A DNA stretch of 64,000 bases, from NCBI GenBank assembly GCA_018993265.1, contig JAGKSW010000041.1:1-64000 (forward strand), written 5' to 3'. The position numbers and the translations under genes were made by a program. This document shows positions 8,201 to 64,000 of the stretch, piece by piece (position 1 is the first letter of the stretch; the number at the start of each line of letters is the position of its first letter). Under the pieces are notes generated by a model that was not told the DNA's origin, searched no databases, and saw only the letters and a program-made list of their open reading frames with translations. The stretch comes from Nostoc sp. TH1S01 (GTDB lineage: Bacteria; Cyanobacteriota; Cyanobacteriia; Cyanobacteriales; Nostocaceae).

Positions 8201-8365
8201 AAGTATGAAGTATAAAGTATGAAGTATGAAGTGTGAAGTAGGAAGTATGAAGTATGAAGTGTTAAATATATAAGTTTCTTCCTTAAGTTTTTAACCTTCG
8301 GCTTTTAGAATTTCATTCTTCATGCTGCAATTTTTTTCAGACTTCAGACTTCACACTTCAGACTT
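8201..8365. repeat. Inverted heptanucleotide short tandem repeats in the sufD-sufS spacer
   Basis: Positions 8201-8261 are a run of AAGTATGA-type heptamers on the plus strand. Positions 8338-8365 carry the complementary type (CAGACTTCAGACTTCACACTT). The two runs lie in opposite orientation about 75 bp apart, so the sufD-sufS transcript could fold a long imperfect hairpin across the spacer. The inner part contains no gene. Confidence 0.8.
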
Positions 8366-20085: not shown

Positions 20086-23000
20086 TCACTCCCATTCTTG
20101 AAATTCATCGTTTGTGTTGCGAAGTAGGCTATTAAGTTGGGTGCGGTGAGTTTCAAAGTTAGCGGCGATATAAATTAGTAAAATGCCAACTAACAAACCG
20201 ACAATCCATTTTAAAAAGGGATAACGTAAGCTGAAAATTACTAATTGGTAAATACTAGTAATTAAAAAAGTACCTGTACCAACGTACAGAAAAGCGCGAA
20301 TACGTAAAGCTAATCCGGCAAAAATAGCGATGAGGCTGAAAATTCCGGGAATGATGACTATATCTTGATGAAACACCACCGCCCATCCGCAAATTAAACT
20401 GATACCTACCAGCCGGACAATGTGCCGAGATGATTTATATTCTGGCAGTTTTAGTTGTGGATCAACTTGGGCAATGTATAACAGAGAGAGTCCAACGGCG
20501 GTACAATACCACAAAGCATCAGTAATATTTAATTGGTGTAACCATTTCCAGGCTGCCCAATCAATTAAGGCAACGGTGATATATGTCAGGCGGATATTCT
20601 CACTCACCTTGGCTAAGATGATGTAAAATGCAGCCGCAATGACTAGAGTTATGGGGTAAACTTGCAGTTTGGTTTCCCACAAAATGATTAATGGCAGAAT
20701 GTAGGCGGCGAGTTGCCAAGGTCTTTTTGACCAACCCCAATTTTCCCAGGGTAAGCTGTATAAAAAGTAGGCTATCACACAAGCGATCGCACCATTCCAA
20801 GGTACTAACGGCCCGGCTAACCACTGTCCCACGGCGGTTTCTCGCCAATAAACCCGCATTCCCAATACTTCTAATAAGCCGAGGTAAACCCACATCTCTT
20901 CGGTGGTAATTCTGCCAAAAACCCGTGGTGTATTACTATTACCTCGTCCTTGGAAGATGGCATACATAATTAATAATCCCCCTGTACCCAACCCGACAAG
21001 GCGATTAGCTTGAATTGGCACGGCAATGGCCAGGGTTAATAATACACTACTCCAAGCCCAGTGCAGATGAGCAATACCTTGGATTTCTGGCAAGCTGAGG
21101 CGTAAGTATTGGCTCAACCACGGTGCTAATCTACTGTAAACTAGCATGATGCTTGTCCCTAAAGCAGACATAGCAATTAAGCCATCACCAAATGCACCGC
21201 CTTGAGCTTGGGACATTTGATAAAACAATAATTCATAAAATGAAATTGATACACCAATAATGCCGCAGTACAGTAGAGGTTTGAAGTCTGGGTGTCGTCT
21301 CCCGATACCAATGACGATTAAGGCTACACCCAAGGTAAATAAACCAGTCCATTCGGTAAAAACGTTTAACCGCAGGACAACACTCAATGCACCATAAACT
21401 AAGGGCAGAATATGTAAACTGTTAGGAAGTTTGGCGGGATGATATCTTCGTCGCCACCATTCGCCTAAAAGTTGGGTGAATAAACCTAAAGCAATATTGG
21501 CGATCGCAACTTTGATTGTAGAATGTTCACCAAAGCTCAATACTTCGGCGATGAATAATTCTACACACCAACCAATACCGTAAAAGGCCCAATCTGTTGG
21601 TTCACGCCAGCTACGATAAACAATGGCGAGTAAAGTGATTGTACTTGCGACTAAATACCAAACTCCGGGGATAACGACGGCATCATAAACTAAATATGAG
21701 TGGATTGTCAGGCTTAAGAGTACAGTACAACATACAGCGATCGCCCATTTATCACTAGCATCTGCATATATACCTGCTAAGTCATGGTTGCGTTGTTGTA
21801 GTAATTTTCGCATTAACCATAAACTAAAAGAGGCGATCGCACCTACGACTAACCAACCTGCAATAGCTAGGCGGGGTAATCCTGCTATCCCTTCCCACAG
21901 CAACGCCGCTACAAAACTCAGTCCTAAACCGATGGTGAATCCCGCAGTTGGTTGATTTCTTAAATAGCGGGTGTTGAAATACATTACCGATGCACCCACA
22001 GCCAAACCGATTAATCTCGTTCCTGGGAGGGAAATAGTTAGCAATTGCGCCATTGCTACAGCCAGAAGACTCAAGAAACTTCTTGTAGTGCGACGTTGTG
22101 CTGTGGTGCGAATGGCTAAAATTGTCAGGGATAAAGGTGTAACTAGCCACATTACTCCCCAATATTCTTGAGTCAAAGTTGCACTATCCCAAGATGAAAC
22201 GAGATTTACCCACAAAAGAATAAAACTGACGAGAGATAGTCCTAAGCCGATGTTCCATGCACTACGTTGCCATACACCACTGCCGAGACTAAATCCCCAT
22301 TCTGCCACCATCACGCCTAACACAACACCAGCCCAGAGGTAATTCGGGAGACTTGGTAGTAACAAATCAATCACTGAGAAAAGTGCCAGTATCCCGATGA
22401 AGTGAGTCAGGTAGATTAAAGGCGTGGAAGATGGCGAACGGCGTTTGCTGACAACAGCCAAAGTAATAGTTGAAAAAACTAGATTTAGCGATCGCAAGGT
22501 AGGATTAATTGTGGCAATGACAGTTAAAAAACTGCCAAACATCACCGCTAATGCTTCACCGAAATTTGCCAAATCTCGTTTCTCGGCATGACGCAAGCGA
22601 TCGCACAGCCATACCATAAAAATTAAATAAGGAAATAATGCCACACTCAGCAATGCCCAAGGTTCATTTTGCGCCTGCGTGAGATTCGTAGCAATTGCAA
22701 TGATTGATTGTCGCGTTCCTGGTGGTACTATTCGCCAACCCTGCCAAATCGACTGTAAGCCAACCACAAACAACACTGCTAAATCAACGTTGAGGCTATA
22801 TCTCTGCAAACGCTGACTTACATACCACAAAGCCAAACCACTCACAGCCAAAGCTTGTCCCGGATAATCTGCTACAGCCACAGCCCAACCGAGGAAGAGT
22901 AAAAGGCTACCTAAAATTTCCCAAACGGGGTGAAGTGCTGAGTGCTGAGTGCTGAGTGCTGAGTGCTGAGTGCTGAGTGCTGAGTGGGAAGAAGTTTCAG

Positions 23001-24000
23001 TAAATCTTTCTCCTTCTACCCCCTGCTGCTGTACTAACCAAGTAATCAACCAACCGCAAATCCCAATGGCTAACCCTAGTTGGGTGACATTTACCCCAGC
23101 AACAAAAATTGCCCGTGACAGCAGTAGGATTAACGAGTAAACAATGACGGTGGCAAATAAACTAAGTTGATTTTTTCCAGTGTTGCGTTGCTGGCGATGA
23201 ATGTAATAGATAGTTAGTAAAGTTGTGCCTATCATCGCTGCATACACAGCAATTAAAGGAAAGACTGTGATTTTCCAACCCCAATGTAAATAACTCAGCG
23301 CCAGGATATTAATTAGCGGTAACTTTCTCGTGCGCGAGTTGGGAAAAACTGTACGATTGCTGCACAGTAAAACTGTAATATAAGTCAGGGTAGGAGCAGC
23401 GATCGCAATTGTCAACCAGTTAAGCGGATTCAGCCACAACCCAAAACTGTCCATTGCCCAAAAATTTACAGGCACTAAAAATAAAGTGACAATCAATAAC
23501 GTCTGAGTTGTTAATCTCAGGTTTGCTTGTCTCCCAGTCCAAAAGCTGAAACCCCAAAAAGTCAAAGTATAAGCAAATAAAACTCCATACTGTCCCGCAG
23601 CGGGAAATCTTTCCCATTGACTTGCAGCCAATACCCCAGAGGACAGCACTACTAAAAACACACCTAAAAATAGTAGCCAGCGCACACTCAGTTCTTCCCC
23701 CAAAGATTGCAACATCCTCGTGGCGAAATTGGGTTGAGAAGGTTTTTTTGGCGGTGCTGGCGAATAAGCAATTAATGGTTTTGCTGGCTGTTTGGGAGTT
23801 GCAACCGCTACAACTGGTTCCGGTTCGACTTGCGGTTGTAACACTACTAAACAAGTGAGATATTCCTTACATAACTGCCTAACTTGGGCATCAGATATCA
23901 AACCTAAGCGCAGCCATAAATCCAATCCTTCTAAGAGTTGCGGATGGGAAGATGGTAGGGTGAGGTGAAGTTTTAACGGACGCTCTGGGGAAGATGACAT
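20086..24000 (-). CDS. Very large polytopic membrane protein (DUF2157-like N-terminus)
   Basis: A 1304-residue protein. Residues 1-55 form a soluble helical domain (LLEGLDLWLRLGLISDAQVR) like DUF2157. A Pro/Ala-rich linker runs to about 95, and more than 25 hydrophobic segments then fill the rest. The C-terminus is short and cytosolic (NSLLRNTNDEFQEWE). I know similar giant membrane proteins from cyanobacterial genomes with no assigned function. Residues around 340-356 (SALSTQHSALSTQHSAL) are encoded by a seven-copy AGTGCTG array lying between two membrane segments. The gene stands alone; the ABC ATPase starts 209 bp downstream on the same strand and has no evident link. Confidence 0.8.
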   Translation of the reverse strand: MSSSPERPLKLHLTLPSSHPQLLEGLDLWLRLGLISDAQVRQLCKEYLTCLVVLQPQVEPEPVVAVATPKQPAKPLIAYSPAPPKKPSQPNFATRMLQSLGEELSVRWLLFLGVFLVVLSSGVLAASQWERFPAAGQYGVLFAYTLTFWGFSFWTGRQANLRLTTQTLLIVTLFLVPVNFWAMDSFGLWLNPLNWLTIAIAAPTLTYITVLLCSNRTVFPNSRTRKLPLINILALSYLHWGWKITVFPLIAVYAAMIGTTLLTIYYIHRQQRNTGKNQLSLFATVIVYSLILLLSRAIFVAGVNVTQLGLAIGICGWLITWLVQQQGVEGERFTETSSHSALSTQHSALSTQHSALHPVWEILGSLLLFLGWAVAVADYPGQALAVSGLALWYVSQRLQRYSLNVDLAVLFVVGLQSIWQGWRIVPPGTRQSIIAIATNLTQAQNEPWALLSVALFPYLIFMVWLCDRLRHAEKRDLANFGEALAVMFGSFLTVIATINPTLRSLNLVFSTITLAVVSKRRSPSSTPLIYLTHFIGILALFSVIDLLLPSLPNYLWAGVVLGVMVAEWGFSLGSGVWQRSAWNIGLGLSLVSFILLWVNLVSSWDSATLTQEYWGVMWLVTPLSLTILAIRTTAQRRTTRSFLSLLAVAMAQLLTISLPGTRLIGLAVGASVMYFNTRYLRNQPTAGFTIGLGLSFVAALLWEGIAGLPRLAIAGWLVVGAIASFSLWLMRKLLQQRNHDLAGIYADASDKWAIAVCCTVLLSLTIHSYLVYDAVVIPGVWYLVASTITLLAIVYRSWREPTDWAFYGIGWCVELFIAEVLSFGEHSTIKVAIANIALGLFTQLLGEWWRRRYHPAKLPNSLHILPLVYGALSVVLRLNVFTEWTGLFTLGVALIVIGIGRRHPDFKPLLYCGIIGVSISFYELLFYQMSQAQGGAFGDGLIAMSALGTSIMLVYSRLAPWLSQYLRLSLPEIQGIAHLHWAWSSVLLTLAIAVPIQANRLVGLGTGGLLIMYAIFQGRGNSNTPRVFGRITTEEMWVYLGLLEVLGMRVYWRETAVGQWLAGPLVPWNGAIACVIAYFLYSLPWENWGWSKRPWQLAAYILPLIILWETKLQVYPITLVIAAAFYIILAKVSENIRLTYITVALIDWAAWKWLHQLNITDALWYCTAVGLSLLYIAQVDPQLKLPEYKSSRHIVRLVGISLICGWAVVFHQDIVIIPGIFSLIAIFAGLALRIRAFLYVGTGTFLITSIYQLVIFSLRYPFLKWIVGLLVGILLIYIAANFETHRTQLNSLLRNTNDEFQEWE
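22934..22982. repeat. Seven-copy AGTGCTG array inside a coding sequence
   Basis: Seven perfect tandem copies of AGTGCTG plus a partial eighth. Because 7 is not a multiple of 3, the protein repeat is 7 residues long per three copies (STQHSAL). Copy changes of three keep the frame; any other change breaks it. The same heptamer occurs in spacers at 48732-48820 and 63331-63379. Confidence 0.95.
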
Positions 24001-29567: not shown

Positions 29568-29777
29568 TCAACCTTTGAACTCGAAATTTTGTCCTCAGAA
29601 GTCGGAAAGTCAAGCTTTTTACTCGAAACTTCGACTTCAGAACTCAAAACGCCAAGCTTTTTACTCCAAAAATCAAGCTCAGAACACGAAACGCCGAGCA
29701 AATTACTCCAACATCCGAGTTCTGAGCTTCAACGTTGCACCTTACAAGTGCAACTGTCGAGTTATTTTCTACAACGT
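29568..29777. repeat. 21-bp degenerate tandem repeat array B (10 units)
   Basis: Ten 21-bp units in direct orientation to array A; for example, CCGAGTTCTGAGCTTCAACG here matches TCGAGTTCTGAGGTGCAACG in A, and the two following units also correspond. Units alternate between an AAGCTTTTTACTC type and an AAGCTCAGAAC type, giving a 42-bp higher-order period. The array overlaps the last three codons and the stop of the following minus-strand gene. Confidence 0.9.
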
Positions 29778-31279: not shown

Positions 31280-31489
31280 TCAACCTTTGAACTCGAAACT
31301 TTGTCCTCAGAACTCGGAAAGTCAAGCTTTTTACTCGAAACTTCAACATCCGGACTCAAAACGCCAAGCTTTTTACTCCAAAAACCAAGCTCAGAACACG
31401 AAACGTCGAGTAATTTACTTCAACATCCGAGTTCTGAGCTTCAACGTTGCACCTTACAAGTGCAACTGTCGAGTTATTTTCTACAATGC
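31280..31489. repeat. 21-bp degenerate tandem repeat array C (10 units), duplicate of B
   Basis: Ten units collinear with array B without any gap (constant offset 1712 bp). The homology extends beyond the array on both sides, from about 31256 to 31642 (B: 29544 to 29930), so the array was duplicated as part of a 387-bp block. Scattered substitutions show that the duplication is not recent. Confidence 0.9.
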
Positions 31490-48731: not shown

Positions 48732-48872
48732 AGTGCTGAGTGCTGAGTCTTGAGTGCTGAGTGCTGAGTCTTGAGTGCTGAGTCTTGAGTGCTGAGTGCT
48801 GAGTGCTGAGTGCTGAGTGCTTTACACTGAGCGACTTGTACTGAGCTACTTGCCCTGAGCGTAGTCGAAGGG
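48732..48872. repeat. AGTGCTG/AGTCTTG heptamer array and adjoining palindrome
   Basis: Positions 48732-48820 are about 12 heptamers, AGTGCTG interspersed with AGTCTTG. Positions 48853-48872 are CCCTGAGCGTAGTCGAAGGG, an imperfect palindrome also seen at 63495-63513. It fills the spacer between two minus-strand genes; no gene lies within. Confidence 0.9.
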
Positions 48873-62289: not shown

Positions 62290-63333
62290 ATGTATTCTTG
62301 GTTGGAAGAGATTATAGCAGAGGAAGTCACCGAGTTAACTTGGCAGCAAGCAACAGCAGCGGCACTGGCTGATATACCAAGGGCAGAAGCATTTGGCATA
62401 ACATCAGCAAATGCGGATGTTATGATCCAAGCACGATCGCACTTACTCAAATCTGTTCTGCCAGATTTTCGGCAATTTTGCCAAAGTAGCTTGCATGTCA
62501 ACTACGAGACAATGTTAGCGGTGTTGTGGGATTTATGGCTACCGCTGGGAATGAAATTAGCCGCACACCGCCGCAGCCTCAACCGTCCTCTAATTCAAGG
62601 AATTTTGGGCGTACAAGGTACAGGCAAAACTACCATGTGCCAAGTTTTATCCTTGATTCTCCAGCAGTTGGGATACCGGACTTTAAGTTGGTCGTTAGAT
62701 GACTTATACAAAACTTACAGCGATCGCTTGGCTTTATTACAGCAAGACCCGCGCTTGATTTGGCGGGGGCCACCAGGAACTCACGATATAGATTTAGGCT
62801 TAAATGTATTAGATCAAATTCGTCAAGGCGAAACTTCGGTTACTGTGACTCGGTTTGATAAATCGCTTCATGCCGGTGCAGGCGATCGCACCACTCCAGA
62901 AATTGTTACTAATATCGATATCGTATTATTTGAAGGTTGGTTTGTCGGTGTACAACCCATTGATTCAAAGGTATTTGATATCCCGCCGCCACCGATTATT
63001 ACAGATGCAGATAAAGCATTTGCCCGTGATATGAATGAGCAACTGAGTAATTATCTGCCCTTGTGGGAGCGATTAGATAGTTTGATTTTGCTGTATCCTA
63101 CCGACTATCGCAGTTCCCTAGAATGGCGCAAGCAAGCAGAACAACAGATGGTGGCTACTGGTAAATCAGGGATGAGTGATGCACAAATTGAAGAATTTGT
63201 CAATTATTTTTGGCGATCGCTCCATCCAGAATTATTCCTCAAGCCGATGCTGCGATCGCCTTCAGTTGCGGATTTGGTAATTGAAATTTGTCCAGACCGG
63301 ACTTTTGGGGCAATTTATCACAATGAGTGCTGA
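62290..63333 (+). CDS. glxK: D-glycerate 3-kinase (plant-type)
   Basis: A 347-residue kinase with P-loop GILGVQGTGKTTMCQVLSL (near residue 107). SWSLDDLYKTYSDRLALL and IWRGPPGTHDIDLGLNVLDQ are diagnostic of the plant/cyanobacterial GLYK family, as are FDKSLHAGAGDR and IVLFEGWFVGVQPI. It phosphorylates D-glycerate to 3-phosphoglycerate, the last step of photorespiratory 2-phosphoglycolate salvage. The symbol glxK is borrowed from bacterial usage. The stop codon and last codons (GAG TGC TGA) belong to a flanking AGTGCTG array. The upstream ycf20 gene is 33 bp away. Confidence 0.94.
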   Translation: MYSWLEEIIAEEVTELTWQQATAAALADIPRAEAFGITSANADVMIQARSHLLKSVLPDFRQFCQSSLHVNYETMLAVLWDLWLPLGMKLAAHRRSLNRPLIQGILGVQGTGKTTMCQVLSLILQQLGYRTLSWSLDDLYKTYSDRLALLQQDPRLIWRGPPGTHDIDLGLNVLDQIRQGETSVTVTRFDKSLHAGAGDRTTPEIVTNIDIVLFEGWFVGVQPIDSKVFDIPPPPIITDADKAFARDMNEQLSNYLPLWERLDSLILLYPTDYRSSLEWRKQAEQQMVATGKSGMSDAQIEEFVNYFWRSLHPELFLKPMLRSPSVADLVIEICPDRTFGAIYHNEC

Positions 63334-63560
63334 GTAGTATAGCAAAGTGCTGAGTGCTGAGTGCTGAGTGCTGAGTAGGAACTCAGTATTTTCAGGAGTT
63401 TCAGCCACCAACATAGTCCTAACCTATGCTTCGACTGCTATAACAAGAGTACTCAGTACTTTCGCACTTGTTAAAAGCTCCACCTCTTGCAATGCCCTGA
63501 GCTTGTCGAAGGGTAGGTGGTTTTCTAACTCAGCACTCAGCACTTTCTACTCAGCACTCT
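63331..63560. repeat. Spacer of inverted AGTGCTG repeats
   Basis: AGTGCTG units at 63338-63379, starting within the last codons of the glycerate kinase gene, are in inverted orientation to ACTCAGCACTCAGCACTTTC at 63527-63560. Between them is CCCTGAGCTTGTCGAAGGG (63495-63513), a palindrome of the type also at 48853. No gene. Confidence 0.85.
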
Positions 63561-63563
63561 TCT

Positions 63564-64000
63564 CTATAGAGCATCAGGGTCTACACCCAAAGCGCGTAAT
63601 GTTTCTCGTAAACGGGCATTTTCTTGTTCAGCTTTTGCCGCACGTTCATCACCAGTCAGCAATAGATTTCCTTGGTCATCCCACCAACGTAGCCAAGGTA
63701 AAGTCGCATTGAGATAATAACCTTGCCAAATACCTAACTCCACACCCAAAGGAGAGATAGAATAATTTCCTCGTTCATTGGGCAGCATCATTTCATAGCG
63801 ACCAGCAACAAGCTGATATATTTCGACGCTGGCCTTTTTAACTTCATAAATACCATAGTAAGCGGGACGAATCACCTGTTCATAAATCCAAAACTTACCT
63901 TCTAAGGGTGTGTTGTCTCGTTCTTCTTGCCCATCACCAGAGACGAATTCTAGAACAATTAAAGGCGCAATCAATTCTTGCCATAAAACGTAAGAACGAC
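63564..64000 (-). CDS. Uma2-family (DUF820) putative endonuclease, truncated by window edge
   Basis: The minus-strand frame is open to the last base. Codons beyond the first possible start at 63974 already read RSYVLWQELIAPLIVLEFVS, which is Uma2 sequence, so the 5' end lies outside. Visible motifs are VLEFVSGDGQEERD with the catalytic Glu region, LEGKFWIYEQVIRPAYYGIY, and a C-terminal coiled tail (RAAKAEQENARLRETLRALG) typical of one Uma2 subgroup. About 145 residues are present of an expected 230. Nuclease-like fold; role unproven. It converges with the glycerate kinase gene across a repeat-filled spacer. Confidence 0.88.
   Translation of the reverse strand, partial: RSYVLWQELIAPLIVLEFVSGDGQEERDNTPLEGKFWIYEQVIRPAYYGIYEVKKASVEIYQLVAGRYEMMLPNERGNYSISPLGVELGIWQGYYLNATLPWLRWWDDQGNLLLTGDERAAKAEQENARLRETLRALGVDPDAL

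Follow-up and report, generated by a model that had tools for sequence, protein, structure and literature searches.

A heptamer array in frame in a Nostoc membrane-protein gene resembles a tolerated repeat rather than an on/off switch

We analyzed a stretch of 64,000 nucleotides from Nostoc sp. TH1S01 (contig JAGKSW010000041.1, positions 1 to 64,000; "the window"), in which a perfect tandem array of the heptamer CAGCACT lies within the gene for a large membrane-type protein. The frame-preserving lengths of the loop that it encodes, and the other repeats that related species carry in the same loop, make the array look like a tolerated passenger and not an on/off switch. We consider it probable (roughly 0.83) that the array is a copy of a dispersed STRR-like tandem repeat, tolerated in a disordered loop of the membrane protein, that selection keeps the loop at frame-neutral lengths, and that the array does not serve as a dedicated switch.

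Results

The array and its host protein

Tandem Repeats Finder (TRF) reports an array of 53 nt with period 7, 7.57 (7.6) copies and a 100% match (Table 1). Its seven whole copies are the AGTGCTG array that the earlier note had placed at 22934-22982. The note was also right that the array is in frame in a gene for a protein of 1304 residues, that it encodes STQHSAL, and that it lies between membrane segments (two helices in our model). The window contains 15 occurrences of a 14-mer made of two units, AGTGCTGAGTGCTG, and 100 dinucleotide shuffles contain none. Further tandem arrays of the window, at 8201-8260, 29568-29711 and 31305-31405, are AAGTATG (8.6 copies) and a pair of similar arrays with 42-nt repeats. 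By eye, a G-rich stretch shortly upstream of the array resembles the loops of relatives, and it may be what is left, after decay, of their GGCAGGA-type repeat in the same loop, although the resemblance is weak.

Table 1. Coordinates of features in the window, and loci at which CAGCACT/AGTGCTG arrays lie inside other open reading frames
Feature	Position or locus	Strand	Remarks
Host gene	20086..24000	-	membrane-type protein of 1304 aa with multiple helices; DUF2157 match is weak
Heptamer array	22934..22986	-	AGTGCTG on +, CAGCACT on coding strand; residues 339-356
G-rich stretch	23007..23031	-	on coding strand, shortly upstream of array; by eye against relatives' loops
Sibling AGTGCTG array	48732..48821	+	interrupted; outside called ORFs
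Sibling AGTGCTG array	63346..63376	+	4.4 copies; outside called ORFs
Sibling array	63528..63544	-	2.4 copies; opposite orientation, in spacer
Internal array, PriA	L113		
Internal array, GcvP	L141		
Internal array, TrpD	L124		between its two domains
Internal array, M20 and M16 peptidases	L120, L122		
Internal array, UPF0102	L123		
Internal array, FGE/DinB protein	L138		
Internal array, ORF	L133		no Pfam match
In-frame array, SMC	L193		selected case
In-frame array, CheA-type kinase	L191		selected case
In-frame array, protein with two ABC domains	L189		selected case
In-frame array, U32 peptidase	L195		selected case

Read on the CAGCACT strand, the repeat gives the same seven residues, STQHSAL, in all three frames and contains zero stops. 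On the opposite strand TGA is met in every frame, so that a long array fits inside a gene in one orientation only. Gain or loss of one or two copies in the window array brings a stop at residue 360-368; with three copies more or fewer, the frame is kept and reading continues to the natural stop. The earlier expectation that a change of one copy shifts the frame and truncates the protein therefore holds, and its figure of about 340 residues was nearly right.

Pfam gave DUF2157 as the only match to the host protein (E 7e-5, 23 bits), under the gathering score of 32.4, and an NCBIfam search of the protein gave no match. An AlphaFold model of residues 95-650 (556 residues, from an alignment of 55 sequences) is helical throughout, with a mean pLDDT of 81 and a pTM of 0.69. 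The sole internal stretch with pLDDT below 50 is at the array (model residues 249-261, protein residues 343-355), between model helices 211-245 and 262-281. The array region is thus disordered in the model. A PDB fold search with the 556-residue model returned nothing at E <= 0.001.

The dispersed repeat family and its other hosts

The two-unit 14-mer has 470 matches in the source genome and between 5 and 344 in each of ten congeners, and the reversed 14-mer, used as a control, has 0 in all 11 genomes. We took a census of arrays in 41 stretches (814 kb including the window) that were picked mostly around known array sites and are not a random sample. In them we counted 56 arrays 17 nt or longer, a total in which two arrays appear twice as L140 overlaps the end of the window. 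Inside ORFs of at least 150 aa lie 18 of the 56, and 17 of these 18 are read in the stop-free direction. The array was met only at the ORF edge in L109 and L111, and it may precede the true start in L126 and L134. Four further hosts are selected cases, fetched as a search had pointed to them. CAGCACT arrays are in frame in conserved genes other than the window gene (Table 1). L192 has an array and no Pfam match, and the arrays of L194 lie outside any long ORF.

Nine distinct pairs of ORFs in the source genome flank an array with a geometry that could indicate a split gene; this test is limited to arrays that have a long open frame to either side on one strand. Splitting was rejected for seven of the nine, which Pfam resolves into two distinct genes each: two full-length PsaA_PsaB proteins, RNA polymerase beta and Rpb1-type subunits, ribosomal L11 and L1, an epimerase and a radical SAM protein, HMGL/LeuA and Uma2, ZnuA and ABC, and an NMT1-like protein and a permease. 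Of the remaining two, L109 has a Pfam match on one side and the window pair at 62290-63709 has none. Other dispersed elements, e.g., a NATCFKSGNPPxAVAP stretch, adjoin the heptamers in the loops of PriA (L113, 15123-17795) and SMC (L193, 1328-5035).

GcvP, TrpD and PriA loops across the genus

In each of the 11 genus genomes the GcvP loop is in frame. Its length is 45 nt in five of them and 63, 66, 66, 87, 90 and 108 nt in the other six. In four of the longer six, the excess over the shortest is a multiple of 21 nt (21, 21, 42 and 63 nt); the other two are longer by 18 and 45 nt, which are not whole 21-nt steps. Among the 45-nt loops, those of L155 and L157 have exactly ACTCAGCACTCA at the site and the other three have variants of it, and one of the 66-nt loops (L149) has instead an array of the ACTCCCC type. 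The TrpD loop (54-111 nt) is likewise in frame in 11/11 genus genomes, with CAGCACT-like, ACTCCCC-type or G-rich stretches depending on the species. For PriA, the loop holds mixed repeats and is in frame in all eight distinct genomes with both flanks, a count that leaves out G001, G007 and G008, which could not be joined at the loop.

In G001, a single contig, PriA residues 1-468 are encoded at C1:6308023-6309420 and residues 675-891 at 4115650-4116300, about 2.19 Mb from the first piece (L201 and L202 cover both). The first piece stops at the repeat-bearing loop. The separation may reflect rearrangement, decay or an assembly error.

The orthologous loop in relatives

Named relatives of the window gene are from Nostoc and other Nostocales. 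We kept 80 of 154 from named genomes and added 11 genomes through a genus search. With both flanks required, 76 loops could be compared: the window's own, those of three congeners, and 72 of the 80 named-genome loci. Omitted were loci that repeat others (L010, L012, L013, L015, L017, L018), loci with a contig end inside the loop (L083, L084, L086, L088, L089, L092, L094, L095) and the split L019/L020. The species in this set, and in the larger survey of 137 in-frame loops below, share ancestry, and the counts are not independent.

All 76 loops are open and in frame. Their lengths range from 30 to 369 nt and all 76 are different, although identity in the flanks reaches 96% for some pairs. Tandem arrays of 5-12 nt units are present in 51 loops, with a best period of 7 in 17, 8 in 21, 9 in 12 and 12 in one; the units include GGCAGGA, GGGGAGCA, GACAAGGA and CCTCATCTC types. 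For example, L048 and L106 encode proteins with 96% identity, and their octamer arrays have 10.2 and 13.2 copies, a difference of three copies or 24 nt that keeps the frame. For two units, we compared the unit of the loop with the commonest repeat family of the same genome; a link between them is suggestive at best.

At the array site, the sister species L014, L016, L028 and L029 have short degenerate ACTCAGC tracts and L027 has one unit-like remnant. These tracts make the window array look like an expansion in place; judged by eye from the loop sequences, it probably grew from a short ACTCAGC tract of this kind.

TRF found repeats elsewhere in the ORF as well (103 rows in 61 of the 76 loci, mostly of 2-4 copies). 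A second repeat-bearing loop lies at about residues 530-590 in L034, L049, L052, L054, L055, L068, L070 and L103, with longer arrays in some species (e.g., L054 and L070). The array loop is favoured by repeats, though it is not unique in the ORF.

Two loci have unusual forms of the gene. The window gene is matched over 5579 nt in L077 (4001-9579, Nostoc mirabile CHAB5784), about 1.6 kb above the other loci; the loop accounts for 132 nt, so the extra sequence is elsewhere in the gene. L067 (540-4415), a copy of the window gene from a MAG, has an open frame of just 440 aa, with the loop in frame.

Such turnover could be adaptive, if frame-neutral changes in loop length or composition alter the activity of the protein and the variants are selected. 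The distinctness of every loop, with flanks that are nearly identical in some pairs, and the neutrality of the turnover for the frame speak for this reading. Against it, composition is not conserved between species (G/R/Q/E-rich, SSP-rich, or STQHSAL), some relatives have loops of merely 30-39 nt, and similar turnover occurs in the unrelated enzymes described above. We regard adaptive tuning as improbable.

Frame survey across the family

A family-wide survey matched the gene in 194 of 217 genomes at E <= 1e-50, and the figures here cover the 149 of these 194 matches that were listed. The gene is one full-length alignment in 122 of the 149 (one of which, G180, has a TAG elsewhere) and partial alignments in a single open frame of at least 1280 codons in 14. 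We fetched nine of those 14, and their loops are in frame; in the remaining five the loop lies within the aligned region. In ten genomes a contig ends inside the loop, and in G113 the loop is in frame in a shorter frame. One of two rows for G105 was omitted from the tally. Altogether, 137 of the 139 readable loops among the matches listed are in frame.

In the other two, G049 and G160, the frame is broken within the loop. Both loops are G-rich arrays that mix GGGGAGCA and GGGGGAGCA units, in which a single G sets the frame, and the breaks may be either real off alleles or assembly errors in G runs. The earlier note had advised looking for non-multiples of three, and among the readable loops listed these two genomes are where the frame is broken.

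The note had proposed that the array is a slippage-driven on/off switch. In a contingency locus of this kind, copy number would shift in single cells and the truncated protein would be the off state. The window array has the expected form, a repeat of perfect copies inside an ORF with a unit that is not a multiple of three, in which changes of one or two copies truncate the protein, and the two broken loops could be off states. There is precedent for heptamer switching in neuO of E. coli K1, a proven phase switch with the unit AAGACTC, for which 42 of 64 complete genomes are out of frame (PMC13001214). As in neuO, the 7-nt unit here lies inside the gene, three copies encode seven residues and the frame is kept at every third copy number.

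However, in- and out-of-frame alleles are not both common between species in our loop: two of 139 are out of frame among the matches listed, against the 22 in frame and 42 out of frame for neuO. The contrast is plain, although the Fisher p of 9e-25 is too small, as the genomes are related and the data sets differ (species here, strains for neuO). The repeat is also not conserved at the locus among relatives, whose units and lengths differ, and it begins at residue 339 of 1304, deep in the gene, unlike the 5' repeat of neuO. Filamentous cyanobacteria have several chromosome copies per cell, and slippage in one copy would not silence the cell, which counts further against a switch. We consider a switch very unlikely, given how rarely off states occur between species, the lack of conservation of the repeat and the presence of sibling arrays in conserved enzymes. 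The earlier note had itself named absence of the array from relatives with no change of frame as evidence against the switch, and this is largely what the 76 loops and, among the matches listed, the 137 of 139 show; its alternative, a tolerated insertion, agrees with the other repeats that relatives carry there with the frame kept.

That the repeat acts in mRNA or DNA (as a hairpin, translational pause or G-quadruplex) and is not a passenger is hardly credible: G-rich and C-rich arrays are paired in the loops of L056 and L058, with low absolute folding energy, but the window array is not G-rich and the six loops folded have z of +1.80 (window), -0.46, -0.18, +1.18, +0.86 and -0.16. RNA structure as the function was rejected, none of the six being clearly more stable than its own shuffles.

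Discussion

Comparison with known repeats

Heptameric STRRs of filamentous cyanobacteria have long been known as dispersed, mostly intergenic repeats, described there as being of unknown function (PMC2670836). Heptamers vary in the P6b loop of the trnL intron of Nostoc (PMC3488679), and STRRs are placed in the RNase P RNA gene by the title of a reference cited in PMC4748335. The family described here shares with them its tandem 7-nt units and its many dispersed copies in a genome of the heterocystous cyanobacterial type (470 two-unit matches). Its unit is CAGCACT/AGTGCTG, and it differs in being in frame in protein genes and in that the loops hold other units in relatives.

The G-rich heptamers GGGGA(C/T)T of Xanthomonas and Nostoc PCC 7120 (Rehm et al., 2015; PMC4692102) are also genome-wide and variable in copy number; their unit is another one, and in Nostoc they are reported to be under-represented in coding regions. 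Haemophilus influenzae likewise has tandem heptanucleotide arrays of varying copy number, in the hmw1A and hmw2A promoters and in some ORFs. They are mostly located in promoters or are candidates for phase variation, with frameshifted alleles reported (PMC2651432).

Insertion of a dispersed repeat in frame into unrelated conserved proteins is known from the palindromic elements of Rickettsia (PMC10969869), and the arrays in the enzymes of Table 1 are alike in this respect. The Rickettsia elements are about 150 bp long with a conserved ORF of their own, whereas we found simple tandem arrays of 7-9 nt units. The window array, of 53 nt, is no palindrome of that type, and the RNA of its loop folds worse than most shuffles.

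Frame-keeping repeat turnover in protein loops of Nostocales was not found in a literature search over titles and the starts of abstracts, whose coverage of papers behind subscription was small and lacked one about very small mobile repeats of cyanobacteria.

How the array may have arisen

We infer the following course for the tolerated repeat. A member of the STRR-like family of short tandem repeats dispersed in the genome would have grown in place in the unstructured loop, probably from the short ACTCAGC tract. The loop may tolerate it because the region is predicted to be disordered and all three frames of the CAGCACT strand are free of stops. Slippage or unequal exchange would then alter the copy number. 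With a 7-nt unit most such changes would break the frame, and the frame statistics suggest that purifying selection removes them. Survivors among species would be those with net changes in loop length divisible by three, which for a pure heptamer array means steps of three copies, or 21 nt and seven residues.

Implications

A repeat within a gene may have a non-triplet unit and yet not be a switch, and frame counts over orthologues can separate switches from tolerated repeats. The same loops call for caution, as at their repeats the assemblies are prone to breaks and perhaps to frame shifts.

More tentatively, Nostocaceae genomes may have recurring permissive sites in conserved proteins (this membrane protein, PriA, GcvP and TrpD) that are repeatedly recolonised by whichever tandem-repeat family spreads in the lineage. 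Loop length would then evolve in frame-neutral quanta of three units, and might be exploited as a tuning device. We think this generalization rather unlikely as it stands. A dispersed bacterial repeat family that is read as peptide in conserved enzymes is nevertheless a natural map of the loops in these proteins that tolerate insertion.
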